NCBI GenBank assembly: GCA_025350695.1
Contig: JANXXI010000328.1
Location: 1-63,909 of the forward strand
DNA: 63,909 bases
Reading direction: 5' to 3'
Source: Acidobacteriota bacterium
GTDB lineage: Bacteria > Acidobacteriota > Terriglobia > Bryobacterales > Bryobacteraceae
Under the pieces are notes generated by a model that did not search any database, was not told the DNA's origin, and saw only the letters and a list, made by a program, of their open reading frames with translations. This document shows, in pieces, positions 18,315 through 42,997 of this stretch. Each line of letters opens with the position of its first letter. The stretch's first letter is position 1. Both the position numbers and the translations under genes were made by a program.

Positions 18315-19019
18315 TTGCGAATGTGTAAGTTACGAGAGTCCGACAATTTGTTGGCAACTAACGTGCACGTAAGTCGTAAAGCCATGTTCAAATCAAAGCC
18401 TATAAACCTTCTGTGCTTGGCAACCATCTTTTCGCTCGTCGGGACGTGTCAGGGCGCGCCCGGTGAAACCAGCAAGGCGTCTACGATACCATCCCCTACA
18501 AGTGAGGGGGGAGAGAGTTTACAACCTCCTTCGGGCTACGTCATTGGGGCGGGCGACATTCTGGGAATCAACGTTTGGCATGAACCCGAAGCTTCTGTAT
18601 TGTCCACCGTCGTACGTTCCGATGGATTGATTTCACTGCCACTTATCAAAGAGTTTGAGGCCGCTGGATTGACGCCAAAACAGCTCGAGAAAGCTTTAAC
18701 CGAAAAGCTTTCCAAGCAAATTCGCCAGCCAGATGTAACGGTCCTAGTAAAAGAAATCCATAGTGAACGAATCTACCTCATTGGTGCCCTTAAAAAAGAA
18801 TCGCAACTTACTCTAAAATCCTCACTTACCGTTCTACAGGCGATCGCAGAATCCGGCGGACTTACAGACTACGCCAAGAAAGCCAAAATCTATGTCTTAC
18901 GCAAGGAAAACGGCAAATCCATCAAGATTCCTTTCGATTACACTGCCGTGATACGCGGCGACCACATGGAGCAAAACATCGCCTTGAAGCCGGGCGACAC
19001 GATCGTGGTTCCCCAATAA
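18315..19019 (+). CDS. Polysaccharide export protein (Wza-like, Poly_export/SLBB)
   Basis: Outer-membrane or periplasmic polysaccharide exporter. The Poly_export domain begins at YVIGAGDILGINVWHE and continues to the DGLISLPLI block. A single SLBB-like domain follows (IYLIGALKKESQL ... LTVLQAIAESGGLTDYAKK), and the protein ends in ALKPGDTIVVPQ. At about 210-234 residues it is shorter than Wza and lacks the C-terminal helix, as is common in acidobacteria and PEP-CTERM-type loci. Start: TTG at 18315 has AAGGAG six bases ahead, but the ATG at 18384 gives a cleaner signal peptide (MFKSKPINLLCLATIF). First gene of the locus. Confidence 0.9.
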   Translation: MRMCKLRESDNLLATNVHVSRKAMFKSKPINLLCLATIFSLVGTCQGAPGETSKASTIPSPTSEGGESLQPPSGYVIGAGDILGINVWHEPEASVLSTVVRSDGLISLPLIKEFEAAGLTPKQLEKALTEKLSKQIRQPDVTVLVKEIHSERIYLIGALKKESQLTLKSSLTVLQAIAESGGLTDYAKKAKIYVLRKENGKSIKIPFDYTAVIRGDHMEQNIALKPGDTIVVPQ

Positions 19020-19092
19020 CCGTCCGAATAAATACCACTTTTTGGGAATCTTGTCCAAACTCTTTCCCTAATGGAAACAAAGTTATTAACCA

Positions 19093-20547
19093 ATGTTCAG
19101 AGCAACAATAATACGCAAAAGCGCACATCAAATTCTTAACCTAGCGCTCCTGTTCTGCGCATCCGGCCTTGCGTCTAAAGGCCAAGTCGTTACTGGAATC
19201 GAAGGTGAGGGGCGCCGTAACGGATTCGACATTTACGGAGCCTCTGGCTCAGTCGGATACTCCTCGTACCCTGGTAGTTTCAATATCACAGGAATAGTCC
19301 CCAATATCCAGGGAGGATACACCGCATCGGCGAATGCCTCGCTAAGCTACGCAACAGGAGGACCTCGATTGAGATTCGGTACACAGTATACGCCTTCCTA
19401 TGCTGGCGCCTTTTACGGATCCAATCTTAATTCTTTTAATCAGAGTCTAGCTGTGGAACTCGCGTCTAGGTTGAATGTCAAATGGGCATTTACATTGAGT
19501 GGCAACGCCGAAGAGACAACTCTCAACCAGTTTGTGTTCAAGCAAAATGGATTTACCGGATTCGTAACCGCGCAAGGAACGCCCGATCAATTCGCCAGAG
19601 GCATCATCGATGGATCAAGTGCCGGATTAGTTGGGATCCCGCAAACGCTTGTTTATGGATCAAGAGTTCTGAACTTTGGAGCCAATGCCAGTGCTAGTTA
19701 CAAGCCAACCACAAGATTAGGCTTGGTCACCACTCTAGGATTCAACGAATCGGTAGCCCGGCGTTCCAGTCAAACGGAAGCAGCATTCTTGATACCTCGC
19801 ACAACATTTGAATTTGCCTCGGTAGCCCCTACCTACTCGTTGAGTGAGCGCGACGAACTTGGCGGCAAAGTCGAGGTCACCGCCACAAAGAGCCGCGTGA
19901 GTGATTTCCGGGCCTACTCCTACGTTGGTTCGTATGGGCGCAGGTTAACCGAGCATCTGTTCGCCAATGCGCAACTCGGCCTTAGTAATTTCAGTTATGC
20001 TGGCCGCGACGGTGGACGCACATATATCGGTACAGGAATTCTAGGCTACAGGAATAATCGTGGCCAAACATGGGCCATTACTGCTAGCCGCAAATCCGGA
20101 GACCTTTACGGGTTAACCTCTTCATCCTCCAATTCCATATTTGGCGCCTGGTTCTATCGCAAGCGGGGGTCTAAATTTGGATTCCAAGCTTACGGTGGAG
20201 AAGAACGATTGTCAGGCGGGTCGCTTGGCGGACTAACAGTTGCGCAGGCCAGCGGCGGAGTTCTGCGGTCGTTGGGAAGATTGACCACTACAAGTTTCTC
20301 TTATGCCTTTATGAGCGCCTCAAAAACAGAACTGCTCAACTACAATGGCGGCACAACACATGCCGTGCGCTTAGCTGTATTTTGGGTTCCACGACAATTG
20401 GAACAAGGCCCAAAAACGAGGGACGAATTCCAAACGGCTTTCCAAAGTTTCGATCAAAATCCCAAAGATTCGGTACTCAGTTTCCAACCGCCGGAAGTGA
20501 AATCAATGAGTTGGAAGCCTTGGGCGTTGGCCCCGGAGTTGCAGTGA
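19093..20547 (+). CDS. Outer-membrane beta-barrel protein of the polysaccharide locus
   Basis: 484 residues with a signal peptide (residues 1-30, LALLFCASGLASKGQ). The rest alternates polar and hydrophobic residues in short Gly/Tyr/Ser-rich strands (for example FTLSGNAEETTL, NFGANASASYKP, FKFGFQAYGGE-like hairpins), as in outer-membrane porins. The last 70 residues leave the barrel pattern. I do not recognise a named family. Its position between exporter and chain-length gene resembles the locus-specific barrel of PEP-CTERM-type exopolysaccharide loci, so a secretion-pore role is a reasonable guess. Confidence 0.7.
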   Translation: MFRATIIRKSAHQILNLALLFCASGLASKGQVVTGIEGEGRRNGFDIYGASGSVGYSSYPGSFNITGIVPNIQGGYTASANASLSYATGGPRLRFGTQYTPSYAGAFYGSNLNSFNQSLAVELASRLNVKWAFTLSGNAEETTLNQFVFKQNGFTGFVTAQGTPDQFARGIIDGSSAGLVGIPQTLVYGSRVLNFGANASASYKPTTRLGLVTTLGFNESVARRSSQTEAAFLIPRTTFEFASVAPTYSLSERDELGGKVEVTATKSRVSDFRAYSYVGSYGRRLTEHLFANAQLGLSNFSYAGRDGGRTYIGTGILGYRNNRGQTWAITASRKSGDLYGLTSSSSNSIFGAWFYRKRGSKFGFQAYGGEERLSGGSLGGLTVAQASGGVLRSLGRLTTTSFSYAFMSASKTELLNYNGGTTHAVRLAVFWVPRQLEQGPKTRDEFQTAFQSFDQNPKDSVLSFQPPEVKSMSWKPWALAPELQ

Positions 20548-20598
20548 TCAACAACGATGGTGACAACAAGATGTTGACTGGGAAGCAATAGGATTTCC

Positions 20599-22317
20599 GT
20601 GCAAAGAAAACAAGGAACAACGATAGGAACGCAATTTTCGCCTCTCTCGGTAGCGAGGATGCTTTGGAAACACCGGCCCGGCATTTTGCTTTTGTGGGCG
20701 TTTCTCTCAGTCATCGCGTTTCTGCTGGTCTCGAGAAGACCCAACATCTATCGGGCGGAAGCAGTGATTCTAGTCGACACGCAAAAAATTCCGGAGACTT
20801 TCGTTTCGTCAACAGTGCAAGTTTCTCTTCAAGACAGCATCAATTCCATCGGTAAACAGGTTCTTAGTACAGACAACTTGATGAAGATCATTGATGACTT
20901 CGATCTATATCCCACGACGAAAGAAAAGAGGTCGGTTGAGGAGTTGGTCGATAGGATACGAACCAAAGATCTAAACGTTAAGCTGGAACGCAGCCTCAAT
21001 GGAAATCGCTCAGGCGCGTTCCGTATATCCTTCGACGGCTTGGATCCCAACGTTGCCGCTCGAGTCGTCAATCGCGTGACCGAACTGTTCGTTAGAGAAA
21101 ACCGGAAAACTCGAGGAGAAAGAGCCCAAGGCACCACCGAGTTCATCGAAACACAACTTGAACAGGCAAAGAAAACCCTTGAGGAACAAGAGGCCAGCCT
21201 GAGCCAATACAAACTGAAATGGTCCGGCGAACTTCCGCAGCAAGAGTCGGTGTTGATGTCCACGCTGTCCATGAAGCGGGCCGAATTACAAAGCAACCAG
21301 GAAGCGCAGAATCGTGCTGAGCAGAACCGCTTAATGCTCGAAAATTCAATTTCTTATGCTGAAACGTCACTGGGTGCGGCAAGCCGTACCCTAGCGCAGG
21401 CTCTCAATGCTCCTCCACCTACAGTTAGGGGAGTTCCCACCGTGCCTGGCCAGGAACCGCCGCCGTTGGCTTCCGTGGTGCTTGAGGCCCAATTGAGCGC
21501 CGCCAGATTGCGTTATTACGATGATCACCCGGAAGTGAAACGGCTGCAGCTCGACCTCGAACAAGTAAAAGCAGCAGAGGCCAAGACCGCTTCGGCAACA
21601 GCGGCCTACGCTGCTGCCCAGCGAGCCAAGAATCCTGTGGAAAAAACTGAAAAGGCACCGGAGAGGTTTTCGGTTACGCCTTCCCAAGCCGATATCACTC
21701 TGCTGAAGGACGACGTGAAAAGGGAAAAGGACCGATTAGCAAACTTGAGGGCGCAGTATGACGTGGTCAACAAGGAGATCGCCACACGAAAAGTAGATCG
21801 CCAAAGCTTGTTAGCTCAAATTGAGGATCATCAAATTCGAGTTAGCAAGTTACCAATCCGCGAACAGCAAATGGCCGCCCTGACCAGAGATTACGAAATT
21901 TCCAAACTGAACTATCGCAACCTCCATGACAAAAAAGTGTCCGCAGGCATATCGGCCGAAATGGAGCGTAGCGAACAATCAGAGAGGTTCACCATCGCTG
22001 AGCCACCTCGCGTTCCAACTACGCCAGTTGCACCCAATCGCCTTCTGTATAATTTGGTGGGCTGCCTGGCGGCGTTGGCTGCAAGCTTAGTCTTCTTCTT
22101 GAGCCTTGAATTACAGAAAGATAGATTCCTTGGCGAATGGGAACTGTCACCTCATGTCTCCGTCCTTGGAAGAATCCCCAACATCGCGCGGCTGCCCGTG
22201 AATCGACAAGCGCCGGGCAAAGTTGGATTGTTCAGTGGAATATCCGTGATCCTATTTGTTCTTACGTCCGCAGGCCTGTTGGCAACATTATTACTAGCCA
22301 GTGGAGGAACGAATTAA
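20599..22317 (+). CDS. Chain-length determinant / co-polymerase (Wzz-GumC type)
   Basis: 572 residues starting at GTG. An N-terminal Wzz domain has a first membrane helix at about residues 28-46 (GILLLWAFLSVIAFLLV). A long periplasmic coiled coil spans about 180-430 (QLEQAKKTLEEQEASLSQYK). Two membrane helices lie near residues 477-500 and 543-568. The PxxP-like IAEPPRVPTTPVAPNR precedes the second helix, as in the family. The cytoplasmic kinase domain is not fused but lies in the next gene, whose ATG overlaps this stop (TAATG). It should set polymer length with the Wzy polymerase. Confidence 0.92.
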   Translation: MQRKQGTTIGTQFSPLSVARMLWKHRPGILLLWAFLSVIAFLLVSRRPNIYRAEAVILVDTQKIPETFVSSTVQVSLQDSINSIGKQVLSTDNLMKIIDDFDLYPTTKEKRSVEELVDRIRTKDLNVKLERSLNGNRSGAFRISFDGLDPNVAARVVNRVTELFVRENRKTRGERAQGTTEFIETQLEQAKKTLEEQEASLSQYKLKWSGELPQQESVLMSTLSMKRAELQSNQEAQNRAEQNRLMLENSISYAETSLGAASRTLAQALNAPPPTVRGVPTVPGQEPPPLASVVLEAQLSAARLRYYDDHPEVKRLQLDLEQVKAAEAKTASATAAYAAAQRAKNPVEKTEKAPERFSVTPSQADITLLKDDVKREKDRLANLRAQYDVVNKEIATRKVDRQSLLAQIEDHQIRVSKLPIREQQMAALTRDYEISKLNYRNLHDKKVSAGISAEMERSEQSERFTIAEPPRVPTTPVAPNRLLYNLVGCLAALAASLVFFLSLELQKDRFLGEWELSPHVSVLGRIPNIARLPVNRQAPGKVGLFSGISVILFVLTSAGLLATLLLASGGTN

Positions 22318-23708
22318 TGAGCCCGAATCGCGATGAAGCCATGGCGGGACTGGAACTTTTGCCCGCGGATGAGACCGTACACTCCAATGGCAATGGGATC
22401 ACTACTTCCACTAATGGCCATTCTAAATACGCTAACGGGACGGAGGGGGCCGGTGGGCTCAGGCTCAACTCATCTCTCCATGAATTTCAATCCGGCGATC
22501 CCTTCCCACTTGGATTAGGAACTGTCCCCAAGGAGTTCAGAAGAGAGTTCGCGTTTTCCGCCAAAACTGTCTCAATCGACCAGCCAGCTATCAAGAGTGA
22601 CGTCGGAACCACAACTAGTCGTTTGGCGGAAAGTCATCGTCCCGCCCCTCCCGAGCCCACCGTTCCACGCTTGGATCATTCTTCAAACGGCGTAGCCTAT
22701 GAAGTGCACAAAGTCGCGTTCAGCTCGTTATTCATGGAAGACCTTGAAACAACAAGAGGCGCCTGGATAACCTCGCCCGACAGCGAGCCGATACCTGACC
22801 CGCCTGCAACTACCGCTGCTATGAGCAAGGAAATCCCAATCGAACAGGATGGAAACGCACTTGGGTTGGACGACCCCATCACTGAATTCCCCAAGCCATT
22901 TCAAAATGAGCCATTCCAGGGTGGCATTCCCGGACTGGATAGTTCCCCTTATCGCACGGTGTGGCTGACTATTCCAGACGACGGACCAATCTTCCCTTTC
23001 GATGGAGTCGATCCCAGAGTAGCTGAGCAGTATCGCATACTTCGCACGGCAATTTTGCTTCATCCGAGCCAGCCCAAAGTGATCGCCATTTCAAGCGGAA
23101 GCGCCGGAGATGGAAAAACGCTTACCGCCATTAATTTCGCCGGGATCGTAGCAATGAAGGACGAAGTTAAGATCTTGATCGTGGAAGCTGACTTAAGAAA
23201 GTGTTCGCTCGCCCCGACTCTTGGCCTCGAAGCATCTCCTGGTTTAGCAGAAGTTCTAAGCGGGAAAGCGTCCCTTGAGGAAGCAATTATCAGAGCTGGA
23301 CAACTTCCCAATTTTCACATTCTCACCGGCGGTGAGGTGAAACTAAACCCCGCCGAATTGCTCGACTCACCTCAGTTCCGGCAGTTCGTGGAAGACGTCC
23401 GGCAAATGTTCACCTATGTAGTATTCGACACTACTCCGGCCGCCTCCGTCGCGGATTTCAAACTTGTGATGCAAGTCAGTGATGGGGTTTTGATGGTCGT
23501 CAGACCGGAGCACACCGATAGACCGGCGTTTCAAAGGGCATTCGAACTCATTCCCGAAAAGAAATTACTCGGGGCGGTGATTAATGCTTTTGAGGACTGG
23601 TTTCTCTGGAACAAGGTGGAAAGCAACTACTACTATTCAGGCGAGCGAAAAGCGCCCAAGAAGGCTCAACCGTTTTTCCGTTGGCGGCGCCGGGCCACAA
23701 AGGTCTGA
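22317..23708 (+). CDS. BY-type tyrosine kinase (CpsD/Wzc-C like), separate protein
   Basis: Start ATG overlaps the previous stop by one base, with GGAGG ten bases ahead; product 463 residues. Residues 1-210 are low-complexity and variable. The P-loop kinase carries Walker A (GSAGDGKT, about 261-268), Walker A' (ILIVEADLRKC) and Walker B (YVVFDTTPA). The short C-terminal tail has three tyrosines in a row (NYYYSG, about 436-441), where autophosphorylation would occur. It switches the chain-length protein in trans, as in Gram-positive CpsC/CpsD pairs. The long N-terminal tail is unusual. Confidence 0.92.
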   Translation: MSPNRDEAMAGLELLPADETVHSNGNGITTSTNGHSKYANGTEGAGGLRLNSSLHEFQSGDPFPLGLGTVPKEFRREFAFSAKTVSIDQPAIKSDVGTTTSRLAESHRPAPPEPTVPRLDHSSNGVAYEVHKVAFSSLFMEDLETTRGAWITSPDSEPIPDPPATTAAMSKEIPIEQDGNALGLDDPITEFPKPFQNEPFQGGIPGLDSSPYRTVWLTIPDDGPIFPFDGVDPRVAEQYRILRTAILLHPSQPKVIAISSGSAGDGKTLTAINFAGIVAMKDEVKILIVEADLRKCSLAPTLGLEASPGLAEVLSGKASLEEAIIRAGQLPNFHILTGGEVKLNPAELLDSPQFRQFVEDVRQMFTYVVFDTTPAASVADFKLVMQVSDGVLMVVRPEHTDRPAFQRAFELIPEKKLLGAVINAFEDWFLWNKVESNYYYSGERKAPKKAQPFFRWRRRATKV

Positions 23709-23806
23709 GCGTCATTGAGTGGGCAGCTGTTGCGCCCTTTGTACGATTTCAAGTCTTTTATTTTTCAATGGTTTAAGAAATTTCCTGTAAGAGAAGGGGC
23801 GAAGCT

Positions 23807-24376
23807 ATGTCTGAATCCTGCAATTGGTACGCAGTCCAAACAAGATCAAATATGGAACAATGCGTGGTTGGAGAGCTGGTGGGCAAAGGAATTGAAAACT
23901 TCTACCCCGCTTACGATGAGTTACATCAGTGGGCCGATCGGAAAAAATTAGTGACAAAACCGCTGTTTCCAGGCTACGTCCTCATCCGCTGCGCGAGTTC
24001 TTCGCAGGCGAAATTGCGTGTCTTGCAGACACATGGCGTCGTAAGAATTCTTGGCTCTGGGCGGCAGAGTGAACCGATCCCTGACGAGCAAGTCATGGGG
24101 GTTCAGCAAATGCTGGCAAGTGGCAAGCCTTGCTTCCCGCACCCCTTCTTACGCGCCGGAGCCAGAGTGCGTGTTCGCCGTGGCCCGCTCAAAAATCTCA
24201 TCGGGACTCTAGTGCGTATCAAACAACACACAAGGCTGGTTTTATCCGTCGACCTAATCGCCCAATCAGTTGCGACGGAAGTGGATATGAACGACGTCGA
24301 AGTCATCAGCCCGGCTCCCTACGCAGCCGGCATGGCTCGAGCCTTCGATTCAATTTCGTCGCTTAACCGGATGTAA
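23807..24376 (+). CDS. NusG-like transcription antiterminator (UpxY/RfaH type)
   Basis: 189 residues. The NGN domain begins with WYAVQTRSNMEQCVV and holds the KPLFPGYVLIR block. The C-terminal KOW segment AGARVRVRRGPLKNLIG is clear (about residues 110-125). NusG paralogues of this kind keep RNA polymerase from stopping within long polysaccharide operons. Its place inside the operon, after the kinase and before the sugar genes, fits control of the downstream 18 kb. GAAGGGGCG lies just ahead of the ATG. No conserved loading sequence could be identified. Confidence 0.9.
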   Translation: MSESCNWYAVQTRSNMEQCVVGELVGKGIENFYPAYDELHQWADRKKLVTKPLFPGYVLIRCASSSQAKLRVLQTHGVVRILGSGRQSEPIPDEQVMGVQQMLASGKPCFPHPFLRAGARVRVRRGPLKNLIGTLVRIKQHTRLVLSVDLIAQSVATEVDMNDVEVISPAPYAAGMARAFDSISSLNRM

Positions 24377-24436
24377 ACTCCGTCGAGAGTCACCGAACTT
24401 AGAATTGACATTTTCACAAACCGGGAAGAAAACCTG

Positions 24437-24721
24437 ATGTTTCCAAACTTAAAACTGCAAATCTGGAGAACTGGCCTGCGCCAGAACCGCGTTGCGCAAA
24501 TGGTGGATATCGACGAGACGATGCTTAGCAAAATCTTGAACGGCTTCCGCGAACCCTCGGTCGAACTCCAAGGCAAGCTGGCTTCTCTGCTGGATTGCGA
24601 TGCCGCCTGGTTGTTTGAAAAACAGGAGAGTTCGCGCGAATCAGTGCGGAAGCAAATCGGGACCTCCGCACTTGACGGAAGCCATATCTATCCCTCCGCT
24701 GTTGACGGCACGCCGAAATGA
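24437..24721 (+). CDS. Small XRE-type helix-turn-helix protein
   Basis: 94 residues. The first 60 form a Cro/C1-type HTH (LKLQIWRTGLRQNRVAQMVDIDETMLSKILNGFREPSVELQGKLASLL). The tail is polar and has no visible second domain. GGGAAG lies upstream of the ATG. It lies 60 bases after the antiterminator, and together they form a two-gene regulatory insert in the locus. It could repress the operon or a phage-like target; the sequence does not say. Confidence 0.8.
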   Translation: MFPNLKLQIWRTGLRQNRVAQMVDIDETMLSKILNGFREPSVELQGKLASLLDCDAAWLFEKQESSRESVRKQIGTSALDGSHIYPSAVDGTPK

Positions 24722-24800
24722 AGGTAGCGGTTCCTAGTAAACCATTCGGGGCCGCGTAGCTGCCTAACAAACCATCGACGTAAACACCACAGAGAATCCA

Positions 24801-25979
24801 ATGGATATGCCGGTCACCCCCATACTCGGCCCTGAAAGGCCAACAGGTCTTTCCAGATTCTACAGCAGCATGCGCCGCTGGCCCTTTTCCATTAAGATGC
24901 ACCTGTGGGCGCAGCAACTCTTTGTCTATTCACTCTACGTTTGCGGAGCCTTTTGGTGGGCCAAGCGCAGCCTTCGCAAAAACGGCTCGGTGGTAGTGCT
25001 TACGTTTCATCGCGTACTCCAAGACTCGGTATTCGAGAACTCCTCAGTACTTCGTGGAGTTGTCGTCCGGGAGAACTCCTTTCGTGAATTGGCTGAATAC
25101 GTCGCAAAGTATTACGAAGCTATCAAGATCGGCCAAAACCTTCCTGGCAGACCGGCTGACCGGTTGCGGGTTGCTTTTACTTTTGACGACGGATGGGCCG
25201 ACAACTATGCCGTGGCCTTGCCCATCGCCAAACGCTTCCAAATACCGCTCACTATCTTCGTATGCCCAGGCCTAATAGGCTCGGACGAACCATTTTGGCC
25301 GGAACGTATGACCAGCCTTTCCGCCAAGTCCGGGGGTGTAATACTCAAACGGGAAATTGACGAATTGATTGAGATCCTGAAGAAATATTCTCCGGAAGAG
25401 CGAGAGGAAGCCATAAAGGAATTGCTCAAATCCAATGGCGTCGAGCAACCCGAGCCGGGACATTTAGGGGGAAAGTGGACCTTGTCATGGGAAGAGATTG
25501 TTGAAATGAATCAGTCGAACGTAACCTTCGGCTCCCACACTCAAACACATCAAATTCTAACCACCCTACACTCCCCCAGAATTCAATCCGAGATTGGCCT
25601 TTCGAAGGCAGCTCTGGAACATGCCTTGGGGACTTCCTGCGAACTTTTCGCATATCCCAATGGAAACTGGAACCCGATGATTCGCGATTTGGTGGCCGCG
25701 GAAGGTTTCAAACTGGCGTTTACAACCGAAAGAGGCGCTTGGACACCTTCCTGTGATCCGCTCGCCATTCCAAGGGCGAATGTTTACGAGGGGAACATCG
25801 TCCGCGCGAATGGAACCTTCTCGGCCCCCATGTTTGAATACACCACATTTTGGAAAGTCTGGCTCGCCATGAAACGGAAGAATAGCAAGAGTCGACAGGC
25901 AGAGCCAGTCGCCGCGACCCGCTCAGCAAATCCTCAGTCAGCTTCCAACGAGTCACACTTGCCCGCCTGTCAGGACTAA
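24801..25979 (+). CDS. Polysaccharide deacetylase (NodB homology)
   Basis: 392 residues. The NodB domain carries TFDDG at residues 127-131 (metal and catalytic Asp) and the metal-binding SHTQTH (His246, His250). The insertion between TFVCPG and these histidines makes it longer than the minimal domain. An N-terminal hydrophobic stretch (LFVYSLYVCGAFWW) may anchor it. It probably removes acetyl groups from the amino sugars of the polymer or a lipid-linked intermediate. It stops two bases before the polymerase gene. Confidence 0.9.
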   Translation: MDMPVTPILGPERPTGLSRFYSSMRRWPFSIKMHLWAQQLFVYSLYVCGAFWWAKRSLRKNGSVVVLTFHRVLQDSVFENSSVLRGVVVRENSFRELAEYVAKYYEAIKIGQNLPGRPADRLRVAFTFDDGWADNYAVALPIAKRFQIPLTIFVCPGLIGSDEPFWPERMTSLSAKSGGVILKREIDELIEILKKYSPEEREEAIKELLKSNGVEQPEPGHLGGKWTLSWEEIVEMNQSNVTFGSHTQTHQILTTLHSPRIQSEIGLSKAALEHALGTSCELFAYPNGNWNPMIRDLVAAEGFKLAFTTERGAWTPSCDPLAIPRANVYEGNIVRANGTFSAPMFEYTTFWKVWLAMKRKNSKSRQAEPVAATRSANPQSASNESHLPACQD

Positions 25980-25981
25980 CT

Positions 25982-27328
25982 ATGCATTTTGGTCTCGAAC
26001 TCTTTACTATCGGAATCTGCTATCTGGCGTTTCTTGTGGCCGTCGTTCTTTCAATTTTCTGGAAGCCGGTTGCAGGGATCTTCTACCTGATCCCCATCAT
26101 CCCCCAGCAAACCATGCGGTACCGTATGGATCAATATCCATTCGGATCCAACGTAGTGATCCTAACTCTCGTCGCCGTAGCGATCGGATTGAAATTGCGG
26201 GGCGTCCCACTTTTTGGCAAGCTTCCATGGCGGGGTCTGTTGATATCTCACGTTGTTTTTCTATCGATCTCCGCCTGTTTGGGTTCGTTGTATCTCAATG
26301 TACCAATGCCATTCATGCCCTCCGACCCACGGTTTAATGAGTGGAAAGCTTACGTCATTATGCCGTGGATGGTGTTTCTCGTCGCCGGAGCCGTAACCAA
26401 CATAAAGGACTTGAAAATAGTCCTGATGCTACTCTGCCTTGGAATCTTACTAACCGACAAGGCCGCCTGGGAGGCTGTGTCAGGCCGAGACTATTCGGCT
26501 TACTCCGATGAACTCCGTGATCCCGGCCCAATGGGCTACGCGGGCGCAAACGGACTAGGGGCCTTTTTAGCCCAGAGCGCCGTCTTTATGGTTGCCATCG
26601 CCACCTACGCGCCCTCTCGGAACTGGAAATTGCCGGCATACGCGCTAGCGCTATTTTCCCTAATTTGCCTGCTCTTCAGCCTCTCCCGAGGAGGGTATCT
26701 GGCCTTTGCCGTTGGTTACTTGTTCGTCTGTCTTACATGCCAGCGTAAACTGCTAATCCTAACCGTCGTCTTCGCCACCAGTTGGCTCGCTTTCGTACCT
26801 GAAGCGGTTAAGGAAAGGGTCGGCATGACCACCAATGAGACAGGCGACTTGGACCATTCTTCGGAAACCCGGGTCAACCTGTGGGAGGACGCGTTCACAT
26901 TGCTTGAATCGAATCCACTCACGGGAACGGGCTACTTGACGTACGCCTACATGGGCCGCGTCGGAGATTACAAGGATACGCACAACATTTACGTCAAAGT
27001 CCTGGTCGAAACCGGTTGGGTAGGCTTGATAATGTTCCTGGGCCTGATCTTCCGCTTCATTTGGACAGGTTTGCGTCTGTTTGCAACTTCGCTCGATCCG
27101 GTCCTTGCGGGCCTTGGTATGGGACTGGCCGGCTGGGTCATTTGTTCGGCCACCGCTAACTTTTTCGGAGACCGCTGGAACTATTTTCAAGTCAACGGTT
27201 ACATGTGGGTGCTCGCTGGCCTCACCGCCAAAGCTTTGCAGTTGTTGGAAGAACTGGATTTGTCCGAATCAGAAACAGCGCCCGAAGTGATGGAAAGCAT
27301 ACCGGAGCCATCCGAAGTATTGGCCTAA
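25982..27328 (+). CDS. O-antigen ligase / polymerase family protein (Wzy candidate)
   Basis: 448 residues with about ten to twelve membrane segments. The large loop and the block around VNLWEDAFTLLESNPLTGTGYLTYAYMGRV ... DTHNIYVKVLVETGWVGLIMFLGL is the Wzy_C signature of the family. It is the likely polymerase in this Wzx/Wzy-type locus, although ligase and polymerase cannot be told apart by sequence. It begins two bases after the deacetylase stop, and the next gene starts 15 bases after its own stop. Confidence 0.85.
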   Translation: MHFGLELFTIGICYLAFLVAVVLSIFWKPVAGIFYLIPIIPQQTMRYRMDQYPFGSNVVILTLVAVAIGLKLRGVPLFGKLPWRGLLISHVVFLSISACLGSLYLNVPMPFMPSDPRFNEWKAYVIMPWMVFLVAGAVTNIKDLKIVLMLLCLGILLTDKAAWEAVSGRDYSAYSDELRDPGPMGYAGANGLGAFLAQSAVFMVAIATYAPSRNWKLPAYALALFSLICLLFSLSRGGYLAFAVGYLFVCLTCQRKLLILTVVFATSWLAFVPEAVKERVGMTTNETGDLDHSSETRVNLWEDAFTLLESNPLTGTGYLTYAYMGRVGDYKDTHNIYVKVLVETGWVGLIMFLGLIFRFIWTGLRLFATSLDPVLAGLGMGLAGWVICSATANFFGDRWNYFQVNGYMWVLAGLTAKALQLLEELDLSESETAPEVMESIPEPSEVLA

Positions 27329-27342
27329 CCGCCCTCCATAGC

Positions 27343-28488: not shown

Positions 28489-28489
28489 T

Positions 28490-29554: not shown

Positions 29555-29576
29555 CTAAAGCCAACCTCAACTGCTC

Positions 29577-30179: not shown

Positions 30180-30211
30180 GAACCAACGAATTACTGTCCT
30201 CGGAGGGCTTC

Positions 30212-33369: not shown

Positions 33370-33395
33370 CTCGCACACCACTCTAGCACTCAGCC

Positions 33396-34691
33396 ATGCA
33401 AGACACAATGTCAGGCAGTATCGTTACCGACCGAACCGAAGGGATAGAATCCCGCGGCGCTATGGCCATCAAACACAAAGTACACCCGCCAATTCGAGTC
33501 TTCATGATGGACCTTCTGTCCATCGTGCCCTATTACACGGGACACCTCTGCTCAGCCCTCGATCAAGTTGAGGGTTTGGATGTAACGCTGGGATCCATAA
33601 CGTACCACTTAGATAAGGAGTTCTTTAACAGGCAAGGCGTGCGGACGCACCCAGGAGCGTTCGACGTAATCTCGAATCTTCCGATCAAATCGGCCTTAGC
33701 CCGTCGCGTACTCAAAACGGCGGAGTGGGTCATGAATATGGCAGCTCTTTGCGTTCGCTTCGCCATCTCCAAGCCTGACCTAATTCACGCGCAGTTCCTG
33801 CCTATGATTTCGCTGAGAGTTCCTCTGGAGATATGGTTTTTAAAACTAGCCAGGCTGCGAGGCATCAAGATCGTTTACACCGTTCACAACATTTTGCCTC
33901 ACGATTCAGGCCAACAACAAAAAGCCACGTTTCAAATAATCTACTCCCTGGCCGACCGCCTAATCTGCCACGATGAGCCTGCGCTGAAACGGCTGGTTCA
34001 TGAGTTCCGCATTGACCCGAAAAAGATTTCGATTGTGCCGCACGGTCCTCTATTCGACAACTTTCCTACTCTCGCCCGGGGCAAGGCAAGGAAACGGTTG
34101 AACATTGCCGAACAGCAAGTGATGGTTCTTTGGCAAGGAATCTTACGCCCCTATAAAGGCGTTCCTTTTCTGTTGGATGCTTGGTCAGAAGCATTGCGGA
34201 CCATGTCGAACGGTGAAGCTAGCCTTGCGATTGTGGGGAACGGCGAAGACCAACTAATGAAGGAGCTTCAACAACAAATCGCCGCGATGAATGATTCCGA
34301 GACAGTGAAACTCGATCTGCGATTTATTCCGATCGAGGAAATGAACGAGCTTTATGGCGATGCGGATGTCATCGTATATCCCTACAGTGAGGTAACGACA
34401 AGCGGCGCATTAATGACCGGTATTTGCCAAGGAAAGGCCATTGTCGCCACTAACCTCCCGGCGTTCTCTCAGCTTCTGATAGACAATGTGAACGGTCTTT
34501 TGGTGCAATATGGCGACACGAAGGAATTGGCGTATGCTCTTCGTCGTTTGATTCAAGACAGAGCGCTCCGGCTGCGTTTAGGATCCGCGGCGACCGAGTC
34601 ACATGCTGGCCGTAATCAATGGGCGACGATTGCCGAGCAGACTCTGGCTTGCTATAGATCCACGCTCGAACCCCTTGAGGCAATACGATGA
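33396..34691 (+). CDS. Glycosyltransferase, GT4-like
   Basis: 431 residues. The GT-B fold is inferred from MMDLLSIVPYYTGHLCSAL, VYTVHNILPHDSG, and the C-terminal LWQGILRPYKGVPFLLDAW with YSEVTTSGALMTGICQGKAIVAT. The EX7E-type residues in this last block are partly unusual (SEVTTSGAL), so the donor site differs somewhat from the other four GT4 enzymes of the locus. Its last four bases overlap the start of the flippase gene (ATGA). Confidence 0.85.
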   Translation: MQDTMSGSIVTDRTEGIESRGAMAIKHKVHPPIRVFMMDLLSIVPYYTGHLCSALDQVEGLDVTLGSITYHLDKEFFNRQGVRTHPGAFDVISNLPIKSALARRVLKTAEWVMNMAALCVRFAISKPDLIHAQFLPMISLRVPLEIWFLKLARLRGIKIVYTVHNILPHDSGQQQKATFQIIYSLADRLICHDEPALKRLVHEFRIDPKKISIVPHGPLFDNFPTLARGKARKRLNIAEQQVMVLWQGILRPYKGVPFLLDAWSEALRTMSNGEASLAIVGNGEDQLMKELQQQIAAMNDSETVKLDLRFIPIEEMNELYGDADVIVYPYSEVTTSGALMTGICQGKAIVATNLPAFSQLLIDNVNGLLVQYGDTKELAYALRRLIQDRALRLRLGSAATESHAGRNQWATIAEQTLACYRSTLEPLEAIR

Positions 34692-36211
34692 GTGCAGTGG
34701 TGGTCGCGCCAATTTCAGATAAGCCTCAAGTTTCAAGCGAACTGAAACAATTCCTCCAGCAGTCTTCCCATTACGTCATCGGATTCGGGGGAGGCTTAGC
34801 GCTGGGCTTCATATCGTTTCCGATTTTCACCCGCGTTTTCTCGGTGGCCGATTATGGAAGGATCGAATACGTCTCGAAACTTCTGCTGCTGCTAACTGCC
34901 CTATCGAAAGCTGGGATGCAAAATTCCGTTCTCCGCTTTTTCGATCAGAAAACTTTCGATACCGACAAGGAAGCCGCCAGGCGCTACTATTCAACAGTGT
35001 TCTTCGGAGTAACCGCTACGGCTGCCGCCGTTACGATTCCCTTGCTGTTAAGCGGCTTTCTACCCGAGTCCGTCAAGAGTCCCGTCATCTCCGTGTTGAT
35101 CTTTGCGTCCTCCCTGATCTTCGTCCGCGCAATGCAATCCATTCTACTTTCATTCCTCAGAATCGAGGAGCGAACCGTCGCCGTTAACGTCTTGAACATC
35201 GTTATCAAGGCGACGACTCTGGCCGGCGTTCTCCTACTTCTCTTCATGGGGGCCAGCGCCTCGGTACGGACCTACTTTCTAGTGGTGATGGGCGTGGAAT
35301 CGGCGATAGTGTTGGGCATAACCGGTTGGTTGATTAGCCGTGGCCTCCTTCGGCTGCGCAGCTTCGATCCAGCATTGTTCCGCACTGCCGCGCTGTTTGG
35401 ATTACCCATGATTCTTCATGAAACGTCAAGCATCTTTCTTGATGCAGGGGACCGCGTTATGGTCGAACATTACCTGGGTCCCGACCCACTGGGACTCTAT
35501 TCGGTAGCCTACGGCTTGTCGGCTCAATTGAATACTGTTCTGATGGTCCCGCTTAACATGGCCATTGTTCCCGTATATATGCGGTTGTGGAACACCGAGG
35601 GCAGGGTTAAGACGTCGGAGTTTTTGAACACCTCGCTGGATCTGTTTCTGATGACCGGGGCAGGAGTAATGGCGATCGTATTTGTCTTGTCTCGGGACAC
35701 GGTCACGTTGATGGCTTCATCCAAATATCAGGGAGCCGATGCTTTGATTCCCATCATCGTCGCCGGTTTGCTGTTTTCCGCGGCGCAGATGTTCTTGAAC
35801 GCCGGCTTGATGATTCACAAGAAGACCTACGCCATGGCAGGCGTTTTGGCCATATCGGCCGCAATCAATTTTGGGATGAACGCCTGGCTGCTTCCAAAGA
35901 TCGGTTTGCAAGCAGCGGCCATCGCAACTCTTGTCAGCTACGCCTTCTGCACGTTTGTCTTGGCTTGGATGACAAACCAAGTACTGCCCCTCAAACTGGC
36001 GGTCAAACCGCTATGCGGATACTCCTTTGCCGCCATCGTTGTGTGCCTTTCGGTTTCCAGACTTGAGTTCGGAAACGCCTTTTTGAATTGTATTGGAAAA
36101 TCCATCCTCTGCGTGTCAATCTATTACGCGATCCTGTACGCTATCGACAGCCGCGTAAGAACAATGTCCTTTAAAGCATGGGCGCACCTCAGTCCACAAG
36201 CGCCCAAATAA
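34688..36211 (+). CDS. Polysaccharide flippase (Wzx-type, MATE-like)
   Basis: 507 residues with about 12-14 membrane segments and the polysaccharide-synthesis-flippase pattern (HYVIGFGGGLALGFISFPIFTRVFS at the start, and RTAALFGLPMILHETSSIFLDAGDRVMVEHYLG). It would move lipid-linked repeat units across the inner membrane before polymerisation. It overlaps the preceding GT4 gene by four bases. A matching Wzy-like protein is encoded 9 kb upstream. Confidence 0.9.
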   Translation: MSAVVVAPISDKPQVSSELKQFLQQSSHYVIGFGGGLALGFISFPIFTRVFSVADYGRIEYVSKLLLLLTALSKAGMQNSVLRFFDQKTFDTDKEAARRYYSTVFFGVTATAAAVTIPLLLSGFLPESVKSPVISVLIFASSLIFVRAMQSILLSFLRIEERTVAVNVLNIVIKATTLAGVLLLLFMGASASVRTYFLVVMGVESAIVLGITGWLISRGLLRLRSFDPALFRTAALFGLPMILHETSSIFLDAGDRVMVEHYLGPDPLGLYSVAYGLSAQLNTVLMVPLNMAIVPVYMRLWNTEGRVKTSEFLNTSLDLFLMTGAGVMAIVFVLSRDTVTLMASSKYQGADALIPIIVAGLLFSAAQMFLNAGLMIHKKTYAMAGVLAISAAINFGMNAWLLPKIGLQAAAIATLVSYAFCTFVLAWMTNQVLPLKLAVKPLCGYSFAAIVVCLSVSRLEFGNAFLNCIGKSILCVSIYYAILYAIDSRVRTMSFKAWAHLSPQAPK

Positions 36212-36232
36212 TATTACTTGAAGCCCAATCCA

Positions 36233-37420
36233 ATGCCCACTTCAGCAGCCCCAGCAAAGTCAGTCCATCCCGCGGCAACCGAACCGCGGCACGTCCTATT
36301 TCTGTTTGATCAGCTATGCAATTTAGATGGAGGAGCCGAACGTTCTTTACTAAAGCTCACCCAACATTTGCCCAGCCGATACAGAGCATCCATAGTCACC
36401 TTTTCCGAATCCAAAGATCCGTCGTTTTTGACCAATTTCCAATGCCCAGTCAAAGTCCTGCCTCTTGAAAAAGCGATTGGCTGGAGGAGCCTGAAGGCCG
36501 CGATCGAGCTTAGAAAATACATCAAACGAGAAAAAGTATCTGTCGTTCAAACTTTTTTTGCGACCTCTGACTTGTGGGGCGCCACCGTCGCCAAATTGAG
36601 CGGCTGTCCCGTTATTATTTCCAGCCGTCGCGACATGGGCTTCCTGAGAAATCTGAAACATCAAGTCGCCTACAAACTCTTGGCCCCCTTGTACGATGCG
36701 GTTCACACAGTTTCGTCGGCTGTAAGAGACTATACAATCGAACAGGATGGCGTCAAGCCCGAGCGGGTGATAACGATCGTCAACGGCGTCGATGTCCGTC
36801 CGCTTCCTTCCCTCACCGATCTCGCCGTTTTCCGCTCTAGGCTTGGGTTGGAAGGGAAAGGACCACTAATCACTGACGTCGGCTCTGTGAAAGCGGTGAA
36901 GGGTTACAATGTCCTTGCGAAGGCAGCCAAGCTGGTTTGCGCAAAATATCCCAAGGCCATGTTCGTAATCGCCGGTGCCGTTCCGGAAATTGAATACCTC
37001 AGACAGCTTCAAACCCTGATTGAGGAGATGGGCCTGTCCAACAACTTCCGCTTCATGGGTCGTATCGACGACTCGTTTCCTCTCCTTCAAATCAGCGACA
37101 TTTTTTGCCATCTCTCGCTAACCGACGGCCTCTCCAATTCCTTGCTTGAGGCGATGGAAGCGCAATTACCGTGCGTCATCAGCCGCGTCGGTGGCAATCC
37201 GGAAGTTGTCGTTGACGGGGAAAGCGGTTTCATCGTCCCGCCTGGTGAGCACGCCGAGGCCGCCGAACGAATTCTGGAACTGCTCGACCATCCGGCTAAG
37301 GCGCGTCAAATGGGGAGAATGGGACGTCGGATTATTGAAACCGAGTTTACGGCGGTTGGCATGGCTCTCAGTTTGGCAGGGCTTTATGACGAACTTTTAA
37401 GGTCTAAGCAGTTACAGTAA
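36233..37420 (+). CDS. Glycosyltransferase, GT4 family (paralogue A)
   Basis: ATG 36233 (or TTG 36218 in the same frame) starts a protein of about 395 residues. GT-B with FDQLCNLDGGAERSL near the start and SLTDGLSNSLLEAMEAQLPCV (EX7E) near the end. It closely resembles the GT4 protein at 40210-41466 along the whole length (both contain TSDLWxxxxAK, SSRRDMG and GLSNxLLEAM blocks), so the two are likely tandem duplicates separated by the beta-helix gene. Confidence 0.88.
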   Translation: MPTSAAPAKSVHPAATEPRHVLFLFDQLCNLDGGAERSLLKLTQHLPSRYRASIVTFSESKDPSFLTNFQCPVKVLPLEKAIGWRSLKAAIELRKYIKREKVSVVQTFFATSDLWGATVAKLSGCPVIISSRRDMGFLRNLKHQVAYKLLAPLYDAVHTVSSAVRDYTIEQDGVKPERVITIVNGVDVRPLPSLTDLAVFRSRLGLEGKGPLITDVGSVKAVKGYNVLAKAAKLVCAKYPKAMFVIAGAVPEIEYLRQLQTLIEEMGLSNNFRFMGRIDDSFPLLQISDIFCHLSLTDGLSNSLLEAMEAQLPCVISRVGGNPEVVVDGESGFIVPPGEHAEAAERILELLDHPAKARQMGRMGRRIIETEFTAVGMALSLAGLYDELLRSKQLQ

Positions 37421-37435
37421 GTTCAAAATAAGACT

Positions 37436-40105: not shown

Positions 40106-40128
40106 ATAAAGGCTGGGTGTGGCCCGAT

Positions 40129-40148
40129 TGAACGGCATAGCCGGTTCA
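40129..40148 (+). terminator. Weak hairpin after the beta-helix gene
   Basis: TGAACGGC-ATA-GCC-G-GTTCA forms an eight-pair stem with one bulged G, 24 bases after the stop, followed by TTACTT. The U-run is short, so it may be an attenuator or chance. Confidence 0.3.
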
Positions 40149-40209
40149 TTACTTCATGCACGCCATTACCAGCTATTAACTGCATTGAAGATAGGGCACA
40201 ATTGATGGT

Positions 40210-41466
40210 ATGGCTACCGCACTGACCTCCAGTACAAGGCGCGGCTCTGCGTTGAAAAACAAGCAAAAAGAAATGGCTGCCCGGGTTGCGCCTGCTTTGC
40301 CCCGCAAGAGCAAAGTGCGCAAAATCCTATACATCATCGACAGTATGTTCGGCGTTGGCGGCGCCGAACTGGCCTTGTTGCGCATGGTGAAACATCTGCC
40401 GCCGGACCGATTCGAGTGCTGCGTGGTTACTTTTCATACCAGTGAATGCGCCCGCCACCTTCTCGATCAGTTCCCTTGCAGGGTCTATCATTGGCAACTG
40501 AACAACACCTACGACTTGAACGCTTGGAAGGTGGCCCAGCAACTCTTTAAGTTGGTAAAACGGGAACGCTTCGATGTGGTCCACACGATCTTTGAAACAT
40601 CAGACCTTTGGGCCGGACCAATTGCCAAGGCAGCGGGAGCGAGGGTTCTGGTTTCCAGCCGGCGCGATATGGGAATTCTGCGGAGACGCCACCACAAGGT
40701 GGGTTATAGGCTGCTGAACGGGATTTACGATCAAATCCAAACCGTTTCCGAATCTGTTCGGCGATACACGATCGACACCGACAAAGTGGATCCGGCGCGA
40801 ACTATTGCCATTCACAATGGTATTGACGCCAAGCAAACCGCCTTGCCTGCTGACGTGGAACGTCTTCGGGGGCAATTGCAGTTTGACCCATCACTGCCAG
40901 TAGTAATCTGCGTAGCGAACTTTCGTCATGTGAAGGGAATTGACGTTTTGGTTAGGGCAATCAACCTGGCGCAGAAACAGACGCCGGCGCAGTACCTGAT
41001 TGTGGGCCATTTCGGCAAAAATGCGATTGATTCGGAATACTCTAGAAGCGTCATGGCCTTGACCAGGGAATTGGGAAATGAGGGCCACACACGCTTCCTT
41101 GGCGAATCGAATGAAGTGCCAACGCTGTTGAAGCTGGCTGATTTGTTCGTGCTCCCTTCAAGAAGCGAGGGGCTTTCCAACGCCCTGCTTGAAGCCATGC
41201 AAATGGGGTTGCCGTGCGTGGCGACAACCGTCGGCGGCAACCCGGAAGTAATCGTCCAGAGCGAGACAGGCTTCCTTGTACCTTCGGAAGACCACGAGAC
41301 AATGGCGGAGAAAATTGTAGTTCTGTTGGCCGATTCCGCGTTGCGGAAAAGAATGGGAGAGGCAAGCCGCCAGCGCATTTCGCAACACTTCACCACAGAG
41401 GCAATGGTGGGAAAGATTCTTGACGCCTACGAACAATTGTTTGTGGAGAAGCGCCTGCCGTCATGA
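40210..41466 (+). CDS. Glycosyltransferase, GT4 family (paralogue B)
   Basis: 418 residues. A 35-residue basic tail precedes the GT-B core, which opens with YIIDSMFGVGGAELALLRM. C-terminal SRSEGLSNALLEAMQMGLPCVATTVGGNPEV holds the EX7E pair. Its likeness to 36233-37420 is spread over the whole length, which argues for duplication and divergence within the locus. It overlaps the next gene by four bases (ATGA). Confidence 0.88.
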   Translation: MATALTSSTRRGSALKNKQKEMAARVAPALPRKSKVRKILYIIDSMFGVGGAELALLRMVKHLPPDRFECCVVTFHTSECARHLLDQFPCRVYHWQLNNTYDLNAWKVAQQLFKLVKRERFDVVHTIFETSDLWAGPIAKAAGARVLVSSRRDMGILRRRHHKVGYRLLNGIYDQIQTVSESVRRYTIDTDKVDPARTIAIHNGIDAKQTALPADVERLRGQLQFDPSLPVVICVANFRHVKGIDVLVRAINLAQKQTPAQYLIVGHFGKNAIDSEYSRSVMALTRELGNEGHTRFLGESNEVPTLLKLADLFVLPSRSEGLSNALLEAMQMGLPCVATTVGGNPEVIVQSETGFLVPSEDHETMAEKIVVLLADSALRKRMGEASRQRISQHFTTEAMVGKILDAYEQLFVEKRLPS

Positions 41467-42260
41467 AAGCGATCTCCCTTGGATATCACGACGTAGTCGA
41501 ACAGCTAGACCAGAGCGATGATTCCGTTCGGCGCGCGCCGGCGTACTATGCACTTGACCGAAAGACTTTTCAGAAACACTTGGATGAGATCCGGACGCGA
41601 AAACCTATTCCGCAGGTAACATTCATTGAAGCCAAAAAACAATGGGGGACGCAGGTCCCGGTTTTTCTCACGTTTGATGACGGGGCCGAATGCGCTTATA
41701 CCTGTATTGCCGAAGAACTGGAAGCCCGAGACTGGCGCGGTCACTTCTTTGTCACAAGTAGCTGGATCGGAACTCCCGGGTTCATGGATTCCTCGCAGAT
41801 TAGGGAACTGCGCAAGCGAGGCCACATAATCGGCAGTCATACACACACTCATCCGGAGCGGATGTCCAACCTCACCCAACCACAACTGGCTTCGGAGTGG
41901 TCAGTGAGCTGTAACATTCTTGAACAGATCCTAGGCGAGCGAGTAAAGACTGCCTCCGTTGCCGATGGCTATTATTCAAAGAAAGTTGGCCAATCAGCGG
42001 CTGCGGCAGGGATTGAAGTATTGTTCAATTCCGAACCGGTAAAATCGGTGGGCGAGGAGCACGGTTGCCTGATCCTAGGCCGTTATGCGGTCAAGTCGGT
42101 GACGGCTCCGAAAGGCTCCGGGGATTTAGCAACCGGGGCCATATTGCCCTGCTTTGCACAACTGGGCCTTTGGGAGGCGAAGAAAGTAGCCAAGGCAATT
42201 GCCGGCAAGTCTTACTTGTCGGTTCGCCGGTTACTTCTGTCGGCAAGGACTCGCGGCTGA
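41463..42260 (+). CDS. Polysaccharide deacetylase (NodB homology), second copy
   Basis: 265 residues. TFDDG at 70-74 and SHTHTHP with His126 and His130 form the metal site. It is smaller than the deacetylase at 24801 and differs in most other residues, so it is not a recent copy. It starts in an ATGA overlap with the GT4 gene. It may act on the sugar added by that enzyme. Confidence 0.9.
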   Translation: MKAISLGYHDVVEQLDQSDDSVRRAPAYYALDRKTFQKHLDEIRTRKPIPQVTFIEAKKQWGTQVPVFLTFDDGAECAYTCIAEELEARDWRGHFFVTSSWIGTPGFMDSSQIRELRKRGHIIGSHTHTHPERMSNLTQPQLASEWSVSCNILEQILGERVKTASVADGYYSKKVGQSAAAAGIEVLFNSEPVKSVGEEHGCLILGRYAVKSVTAPKGSGDLATGAILPCFAQLGLWEAKKVAKAIAGKSYLSVRRLLLSARTRG

Positions 42261-42265
42261 GAGGC

Positions 42266-42997
42266 ATGCCGCTTCTAACGTATACCCAACCATTCTTTGC
42301 TCTGCTCTTGACTGTAGTTGTCGGTCTGATCCTCGCGGACAGGCCAAAATCCCGTCCCTATCTTTTAGCAACATCCTTCTTGTTATTCCTTTTCTGCTGG
42401 CCGCCCGCTGCTTGGGTTGGGCTACAACCCCTAGAATCCGGCTACTTTCAAACCCCGCCTTCCGACCGCGACGTTGACGCAATTGTCGTTCTTTCCTCCG
42501 CGGTCTTCCTTCCAAGTCCACCCCGTCCGACCGCCATTTTAGGCGCCGACACCTACGAGCGCTGCAAGTACGCCGCGTGGCTGAACACGCATTGGAAGCA
42601 AGTTCCAGTGCTGGCCTCAGGCGGCGGTTCCAACGGCGGCACTCCTTATGCAGTGACGATGGGCGAGGCGCTGGTCGCCGACGGCGTTCCGGCCTCCATG
42701 ATTTGGACAGAGCAGGGATCGAAATCCACCTACGAGAACGCAGTCAATTCGGCGGCGATTCTACACCAACACGGAATTCGTCGCATTGCTCTTGTAACCG
42801 AGGCCTATCACATGCGGCGCGCCGAAGCCGTGTTCCGAAAACAGGGTTTTGAGGTAGTGCCGGCGCCCTGCGGATTTCGCGCATACGCAGTGCGCGCCCA
42901 TGACTTTCTGCCAAGCTGGGAAGCTATTTCATGGAATGAAGATTCCATGCACGAGGCGATCGCCTTATTTTGGTATTGGGCGAATGGCAGGATTTGA
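42266..42997 (+). CDS. YdcF/ElyC-like DUF218 membrane protein
   Basis: ATG 42266 lies six bases after the previous stop with GAGAGG ahead. The 243-residue product has one or two N-terminal membrane helices (ALLLTVVVGLILA and LLATSFLLFLFCWPPAAWVG). The DUF218 core follows: DAIVVLSSAV, VLASGGGSNGG, GVPASMIWTEQGSKSTYENA and ALVTEAYHMRRA. Proteins of this family act in envelope biogenesis (E. coli ElyC), but the reaction is not settled. It is the last gene of the locus; a U-rich terminator was not found after it. Confidence 0.82.
   Translation: MPLLTYTQPFFALLLTVVVGLILADRPKSRPYLLATSFLLFLFCWPPAAWVGLQPLESGYFQTPPSDRDVDAIVVLSSAVFLPSPPRPTAILGADTYERCKYAAWLNTHWKQVPVLASGGGSNGGTPYAVTMGEALVADGVPASMIWTEQGSKSTYENAVNSAAILHQHGIRRIALVTEAYHMRRAEAVFRKQGFEVVPAPCGFRAYAVRAHDFLPSWEAISWNEDSMHEAIALFWYWANGRI

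Follow-up and report, generated by a model that had tools for sequence, protein, structure and literature searches.

We analyzed a stretch of 63,909 nucleotides (hereafter the window) from a bacterium of the Acidobacteriota family Bryobacteraceae (assembly GCA_025350695.1, 391 contigs, 7.19 Mb; contig JANXXI010000328.1), which carries a predicted exopolysaccharide operon encoding a short outer membrane polysaccharide export (OPX) protein and, beside it, a predicted outer-membrane beta-barrel. The operon consists of 20 open reading frames (ORFs), all on the + strand, spanning positions 18384-42997 (Table 1). Domains were called with Pfam and NCBIfam, and scores were compared with the curated cut-offs. 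A priming transferase, Wzx, Wzy, a co-polymerase, and an OPX protein are encoded together, which places the locus in the Wzx/Wzy-dependent pathway. A preliminary description had called it a complete Wzx/Wzy-type locus running in one direction, and every part named there was found on the + strand. The genes are separated by gaps of at most 104 bases (the largest at 40106-40209) or overlap by 1-4 bases; the several short overlaps described earlier are real at four junctions, 22317 and 31423 (1 base each) and 34688-34691 and 41463-41466 (4 bases each). The OPX start fitted better at ATG 18384 than at TTG 18315, and the listed 5' ends of the BY-kinase gene (now 22317), one GT4 gene (27205, now 27343) and the DUF218 gene (42065, now 42266) also lay too far upstream; the downstream starts were preferred because signal sequence, overlaps, and spacing fit them better.

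The operon is probably transcribed as a single transcript. All 14 + strand terminator-like sites in 17900-46000 lay within ORFs, so that none was found in a gap; a terminator splitting the operon, with different expression, had earlier been named as evidence against this reading. Terminator-like counts on both strands compared with shuffles were 17 against 25.1 expected (standard deviation 4.9) and 13 against 11.1 (standard deviation 3.7). Sigma-70-like promoters in 17900-37500 gave no signal (16 against 14.2 expected), the Rfam scan of the window at gathering scores returned a tRNA as its sole match and no known RNA leader, and the folding stability of 18150-18330 was ordinary (z 0.02). A genome of the same genus, G013, carries 18 of the 20 operon genes plus the divergent sigma-54-type regulator on the far side, with 42% identity for the barrel and 50-76% for the other genes. 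The fourth GT4 gene and the DUF218 gene had no match in the two G013 stretches read, and the deacetylase gene preceding DUF218 did match. Because so much of the arrangement is kept, the locus is more than a chance assembly.

The OPX protein matched Poly_export (PF02563) with 80.4 bits, against a cut-off of 28. Its 211 amino acids, counted from ATG 18384, fall under the limit of 280 given for the short OPX class in the main text of PMC9601211. In Wza chains of 329-394 residues, the alignment with the OPX profile ended at residue 230-254; it covered D2 and left out D3 and the membrane-spanning helix (D4), the domain boundaries being in part those of PMC9601211. A second, weak match of the same OPX domain to the next domain of Wza is explained by the repetition of SLBB domains. 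The short solved export proteins 9n9a and 7xfd (185-186 amino acids) were matched to within 1-3 residues of their end, and no hydrophobic segment was called in the OPX protein. As judged from its sequence, this protein is predicted to consist of the two periplasmic domains D1 and D2 alone and to be unable to span the outer membrane. Another protein would therefore have to supply the pore.

The barrel gene starts 73 bases downstream of the OPX gene. Its product matched nothing in Pfam or NCBIfam, TIGR03016 included, which bears out the earlier remark that it has no family name. The structure prediction called for in the preliminary description was carried out: an AlphaFold model from 36 sequences had a mean predicted local distance difference test score (pLDDT) of 77.1 and a predicted TM-score of 0.73, with 217 of 484 residues at a pLDDT of at least 90. 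Residues 44 to 431 of the model form exactly 18 strands, and its C-terminal tail is uncertain. When it was compared with solved structures by VIA-align, AlgE was joint best (Z 19.4, root-mean-square deviation 4.6, 315 residues aligned). The ranking by Foldseek placed the polysaccharide transporter PelBC second and PgaA (4y25) 22nd. Wzi, PgaA, and TIGR03016-type chains fell outside the best 50 VIA-align rows, a fact that carries no evidential weight. AlgE has likewise been published as the best structural relative of EpsX (main text of PMC9601211).

The distribution of the barrel was then compared with that of OPX genes. Barrel matches at E 1e-5 were found in 22 of 200 genomes of the family, including the window's own, at 23 places. 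Ten of these places (window included) had an OPX gene directly 5' of the barrel, one had it 4 kb off on the opposite strand, and seven had chain-length, kinase, or priming transferase genes but no OPX gene in the stretch. Thus at 18 of the 23 places the stretch read contains OPX or other polysaccharide genes, and the barrel does not occur in unrelated settings only, which the preliminary description had named as evidence against its guess. The barrel matched 16 of 396 genomes taken from the phylum, 14 of them only partially and weakly. In the window's own genome there was also a weak second match to the barrel profile (G000:C262:13284-13562, in L068 and L159; 36 bits). The barrels of L032, L035, and L046 stand apart from polysaccharide genes, and response-regulator or sigma-54-activator-like ORFs were seen by eye close by.

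A scan of genome contigs with the single barrel sequence yielded 55 pattern matches, none of which was confirmed, and it was replaced by an OPX alignment (A2). OPX loci were fetched with the profile of A2, and the best 80 of 304 were used. Since A2 was built from the OPX genes of barrel-bearing genomes, this sample leans towards coupled loci. In addition, 11 of the 80 loci lie on contigs that, judged by equal length, belong to the set of family barrel contigs; counts over 69 loci leave them out. A profile made from the family barrels alone matched 20 of the 4563 ORFs in the 80 loci. Ten of these matches were on contigs already in the profile; of the ten new ones, nine lay directly 3' of the OPX gene and one 1.6 kb further, and some of these new matches came from gamma- and deltaproteobacteria. 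Three rounds of iteration raised the total to 62 matches in 60 of the 80 loci, 55 of them directly 3' of the OPX gene; without the 11 contigs, 50 of 69 loci had a match, 46 directly 3'. As outer-membrane barrels share composition and repeat pattern, the iterated matches show that a protein of this kind recurs at this position; they do not prove common descent. Some distant members matched TIGR03016 (those in L104, L116, L135, and L139) and BBP2_2 below cut-off, and one also matched generic barrel families over cut-off. Among the 273 ORFs of the window, both barrel profiles matched the barrel alone. Such loci, of which the preliminary description supposed that few are described in acidobacteria, are not rare: 52 of the 80 have acidobacterial titles, many of them Bryobacterales, Bryobacteraceae, or Candidatus Solibacter and others Acidobacteria or Terriglobia, and 32 of the 52 have a barrel-profile match. 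As to descriptions, the literature-search listings contained none of such a locus in acidobacteria, full texts on acidobacterial exopolysaccharides being outside this scope.

The barrel and the window-type OPX protein also tend to occur in the same genomes when their genes are not adjacent. Window-type was defined as a best OPX score against A2 of 232 bits or more (a threshold placed at a gap in the list after inspection); by this measure, 21 of the 22 barrel-bearing genomes fell among the 30 of 200 with such a protein. Without the 11 genomes that had supplied rows of A2, 10 of 11 barrel genomes were among 19 of 189 (p 8e-11).

We conclude that the barrel is probably the exit pore of a composite OPX/barrel translocon. 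This reading, offered as a guess in the preliminary description, is the best supported because the barrel has 18 predicted strands and an AlgE-like fold (tied with OprD), the OPX protein lacks its membrane part, and the pairing is conserved; the gene content and the co-occurrence were likewise observed. The OPX protein and the barrel would be in physical contact, the polymer would pass through the barrel, and the polymer is presumed to be an exopolysaccharide. Several results weigh against this. OprD-family porins, which are importers of small molecules, were level with AlgE (Z 19.6-18), and a shared fold by itself shows no function. The Foldseek matches were generic barrels with low TM-scores, the best query-normalised score being 0.43 among the best 50, and the barrel sequence gave three weak barrel matches to solved structures, none of them a polysaccharide porin. 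The cysteine motif of the OPX protein, VGTC, is not a canonical lipobox. Five of the 23 family places had no recognised polysaccharide genes, one of them on a 3.5-kb contig. No recognisable barrel was present in 20 of the 80 OPX loci, 13 of them among the 26 closest (L069-L094), and in nine of the 20 the 3' flank is shorter than 4 kb. In two loci (L070:9839-12895 and L072:10513-13572) an NHL-repeat/Soli_cterm protein lies between the OPX and chain-length genes, the usual place of the barrel; it is ScyF-like, below cut-off.

Three other explanations were weighed. It is rather unlikely that the locus is an acidobacterial XrtA/PEP-CTERM-type locus, making a glycan for PEP-CTERM proteins or an exosortase-sorted matrix. 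For the OPX protein, chain-length protein, kinase, and Wzy, an XrtA-system model is the best or second-best match, in every case below cut-off (OPX, TIGR03027, 145.7 against 180; chain-length, TIGR03007, 220.3 against 278.85; kinase, TIGR03018, 118.7 against 230.65), and one exosortase and 29 PEP-CTERM matches were found in the genome. However, the window has no exosortase match, the genome's one match being on contig C215 with an EpsI-like gene (named by eye) beside it, and G013 has the locus and no exosortase match. Exosortases were found in 184 of 200 family genomes, and because they are near universal there, their co-occurrence with the locus is uninformative. The divergent regulator was tried as PrsR and rejected, since its TIGR02915 score of 327.8 is below the cut-off of 502.6 and ranks tenth of the genome's 44 TIGR02915 matches. 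Common sigma-54 control of the operon and the PEP-CTERM genes was also rejected, as the sigma-54-like motif preceded 1 of the 29 PEP-CTERM genes (L149-L152, L164-L190), against 2.1 expected. Slightly less probable still is that the barrel is not a pore at all but a surface-anchoring or lectin-like barrel, comparable to Wzi of group 1 capsules, or a nutrient porin, with the polymer leaving otherwise. Wzi is also an 18-stranded barrel encoded in capsule loci (main text of PMC9601211), and both the structural tie with OprD-type porins and the barrels standing alone fit this explanation; the absence of D3 and D4 from the OPX protein, which leaves the pore to another protein, and the pairing and co-occurrence speak against it. 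Synthesis of an O-antigen or other lipopolysaccharide- or capsule-type surface glycan is the least probable, because, although Wzy_C is common to polymerases, O-antigen ligases, and O-glycosylation enzymes and its protein matches TIGR03097 and TfpM below cut-off, an OPX protein, a chain-length protein with a separate BY-kinase, and a barrel indicate long-polymer export, and none of the 20 operon proteins matched Lpt or lipid A families in Pfam.

Table 1. Coordinates of the operon genes, the divergent regulator, and the sigma-54-like site in the window
Feature	Position	Strand	Basis
Divergent response regulator with sigma-54 interaction domain (NtrC-like)	16540..17976	-	Pfam Sigma54_activat + Response_reg + HTH_8
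Sigma-54-like -24/-12 site TTGGCAACTAACGTGCA	18351..18367	+	conserved in same-genus genome G013
Short OPX (D1D2) exporter protein, 211 aa	18384..19019	+	PF02563 + SLBB; aligns to Wza through D2
18-stranded outer-membrane beta-barrel, proposed exit pore	19093..20547	+	no Pfam/NCBIfam match; AlphaFold pLDDT 77
Polysaccharide co-polymerase / chain-length protein	20599..22317	+	TIGR03007 220.3 (cut-off 278.85)
Separate BY-kinase	22317..23708	+	TIGR01007 122 > 108.05; VpsO, CapB, Wzc kinases in PDB
UpxY-type NusG paralogue (antiterminator)	23807..24376	+	NF033644 108 > 100
Small HTH regulator	24437..24721	+	PF01381
Polysaccharide deacetylase	24801..25979	+	PF01522
Wzy-type polymerase	25982..27328	+	PF04932 (Wzy_C)
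GT4 glycosyltransferase	27343..28488	+	PF00534; start corrected from 27205
GT2 glycosyltransferase	28490..29554	+	PF00535
Small priming phosphoglycosyl transferase, 200 aa	29577..30179	+	PF02397 (Bac_transf)
DegT/DnrJ aminotransferase	30212..31423	+	PF01041; PseC-like 375 < 423.5
Membrane-bound nucleotide-sugar 4,6-dehydratase	31423..33369	+	PF02719 + CoA_binding_3
GT4 glycosyltransferase	33396..34691	+	PF13692
Wzx flippase	34688..36211	+	PF01943/PF13440 (Polysacc_synt)
GT4 glycosyltransferase	36218..37420	+	PF00534
Secreted TIG ... Soli_cterm protein, 889 aa	37436..40105	+	PF01833, TIGR03437
GT4 glycosyltransferase	40210..41466	+	PF00534
Polysaccharide deacetylase	41463..42260	+	PF01522
DUF218 / ElyC-like membrane protein	42266..42997	+	PF02698; start corrected from 42065

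The chain-length protein matched both TIGR03007 and Wzz below cut-off, with about 440 residues between its first two hydrophobic segments. The NusG paralogue exceeded the cut-off of the UpxY antiterminator model, and the best solved relative of the kinase was VpsO, followed by other BY-kinases.

The divergent NtrC-like regulator is likely the regulator of the operon; a copy 71% identical to it lies beside the OPX gene in G013. The operon may be controlled by sigma-54, this regulator, and the UpxY-type antiterminator together. The genome encodes sigma-54, and the sigma-54-like site upstream of the OPX gene is conserved in G013 inside an otherwise diverged intergenic region. A generic core, NTGG-N9-TGC(A/T), chosen after the weighted-score matches had been inspected, was present between -200 and +150 relative to the start of the OPX ORF in 17 of the 27 closest loci (the window and L069-L094), against 1.9 expected by density. 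It occurred in 7 of the 53 remaining OPX loci (4.1 expected) and at 35 of the 251 other ORFs in L069-L094 (p 8e-8 by Fisher's test). After thinning for kinship the count was 13 of 23 (OPX proteins at least 80% identical removed) or 8 of 18 (70%). The loci with the core are the window, L069, L070, L072, L073, L075, L078-L081, L084, L086, L088-L090, L093, and L094, and three copies read TTGGTCCCGAACGTGCA. In terms of the weighted score, 6 OPX loci reached at least 14, against 1.6 expected. Against sigma-54 control, the mean weighted score over 76 testable OPX loci was barely above that of shuffled sequence (12.13 and 11.91), and the site in the window ends 16 bases before the OPX ATG, awkwardly short, with a leader of about 6 bases. 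A stricter motif occurred at 3 places in the whole genome and at 3 in the reversed control, so the motif alone defines no regulon. Both strands of the window (128 kb) held three better-scoring sites and one equal, and the motif directly before barrel genes was at chance level (2 of 13 against 1.2 expected; 0 of 9 against 0.7). In the 17977-18330 intergenic region there is also an inverted repeat, GTACT-AAC-AGTAC, at 18077-18089, in a block partly kept in G013; it is a possible candidate for the binding site of the divergent regulator.

A broader claim joins the two lines: the barrel would be one of a widespread family of OPX-partner pores that has no name, occurring in Acidobacteriota, Myxococcota, Nitrospira, Rokubacteria, and several proteobacterial classes and grading into TIGR03016, and the window's Bryobacteraceae-like lineage would have its polysaccharide operon under sigma-54. 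The latter would reverse the proteobacterial pattern, in which the sigma-54 promoter sits on the PEP-CTERM genes. We hold this joint claim only tentatively, judging it somewhat more likely to fail than to stand, given the bias of A2 and the weak average sigma-54 score.

The secreted TIG/Soli_cterm protein was also followed in the family. Its relatives (E 1e-30) were present in 17 of 200 genomes, 12 of the 17 being among the 30 with a window-type OPX protein (p 5e-8). Without the 11 genomes behind A2 the case was weaker, with 4 of 9 among 19 of 189 (p 0.007). The gene was on the OPX contig in seven genomes, including the window's own, and up to three copies occurred per genome (loci of G197, G014, and G169; three copies in one). 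An AlphaFold model of the 889-residue protein from three sequences had a pLDDT of 40 and was unusable. The protein may be a candidate polymer-acting or matrix protein; that it folds as a parallel beta-helix, or cuts or epimerises the polymer, is a guess.

In the mechanism that we propose, an exopolysaccharide would be built and secreted by this Wzx/Wzy-dependent operon. The small phosphoglycosyl transferase would prime undecaprenyl phosphate, the glycosyltransferases would finish the repeat unit, and Wzx would flip it; Wzy would polymerise under the chain-length protein and the separate BY-kinase, and the deacetylases would trim the polymer. An OPX ring in the periplasm and the 18-stranded barrel in the outer membrane would form a composite translocon, in the way suggested for EpsX/EpsY and WzpX/WzaX. 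The persistence of Acidobacteria in soil may be aided by exopolysaccharide, as the abstract of PMC5259719 proposes, and the locus provides a ready gene list for an acidobacterial exopolysaccharide. A third polysaccharide-export route would extend into a major phylum of soil bacteria, its barrel lying outside Pfam and NCBIfam, and the gene adjoining OPX is singled out by a profile built on such barrels; the picture of how polymers leave the cell is unchanged.

The locus is real, complete, and well explained: its export system is a known one, represented here in acidobacteria by a member whose barrel is uncatalogued. It resembles the XrtA/PEP-CTERM locus (TIGR03027, TIGR03007, TIGR03018, TIGR03016) in its gene types, but its OPX protein, chain-length protein, kinase, and Wzy are below the cut-offs, its barrel does not match TIGR03016, and it has no exosortase. 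With the Wza-Wzc system of the E. coli group 1 capsule, whose architecture is described in part in PMC9601211, it shares the Wzx/Wzy logic, OPX domains D1 and D2, and a BY-kinase; in contrast, its OPX protein has no D3-D4, the kinase is a separate protein, and a barrel is added. Vibrio cholerae VpsN/VpsM, named in the main text of PMC9601211, likewise couples a short OPX protein to a barrel, a likeness drawn from architecture rather than from the VpsM sequence, and VpsO is the closest solved kinase. Homologues of three Myxococcus xanthus query barrels were found only in myxobacteria, where 115 of 162 class 3 OPX proteins are near such barrels, and other barrels near unmatched OPX genes were declared beyond scope (main text of PMC9603273). 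The string 'acidobacteri' is absent from the main texts of PMC9601211 and PMC9603273. The closest parallel is the composite translocon of M. xanthus (EpsX/EpsY, WzpX/WzaX): although the window barrel matches no curated family, both systems combine a short OPX protein without a membrane-spanning part, an adjoining 18-stranded barrel of AlgE-like fold, and the Wzx/Wzy pathway.

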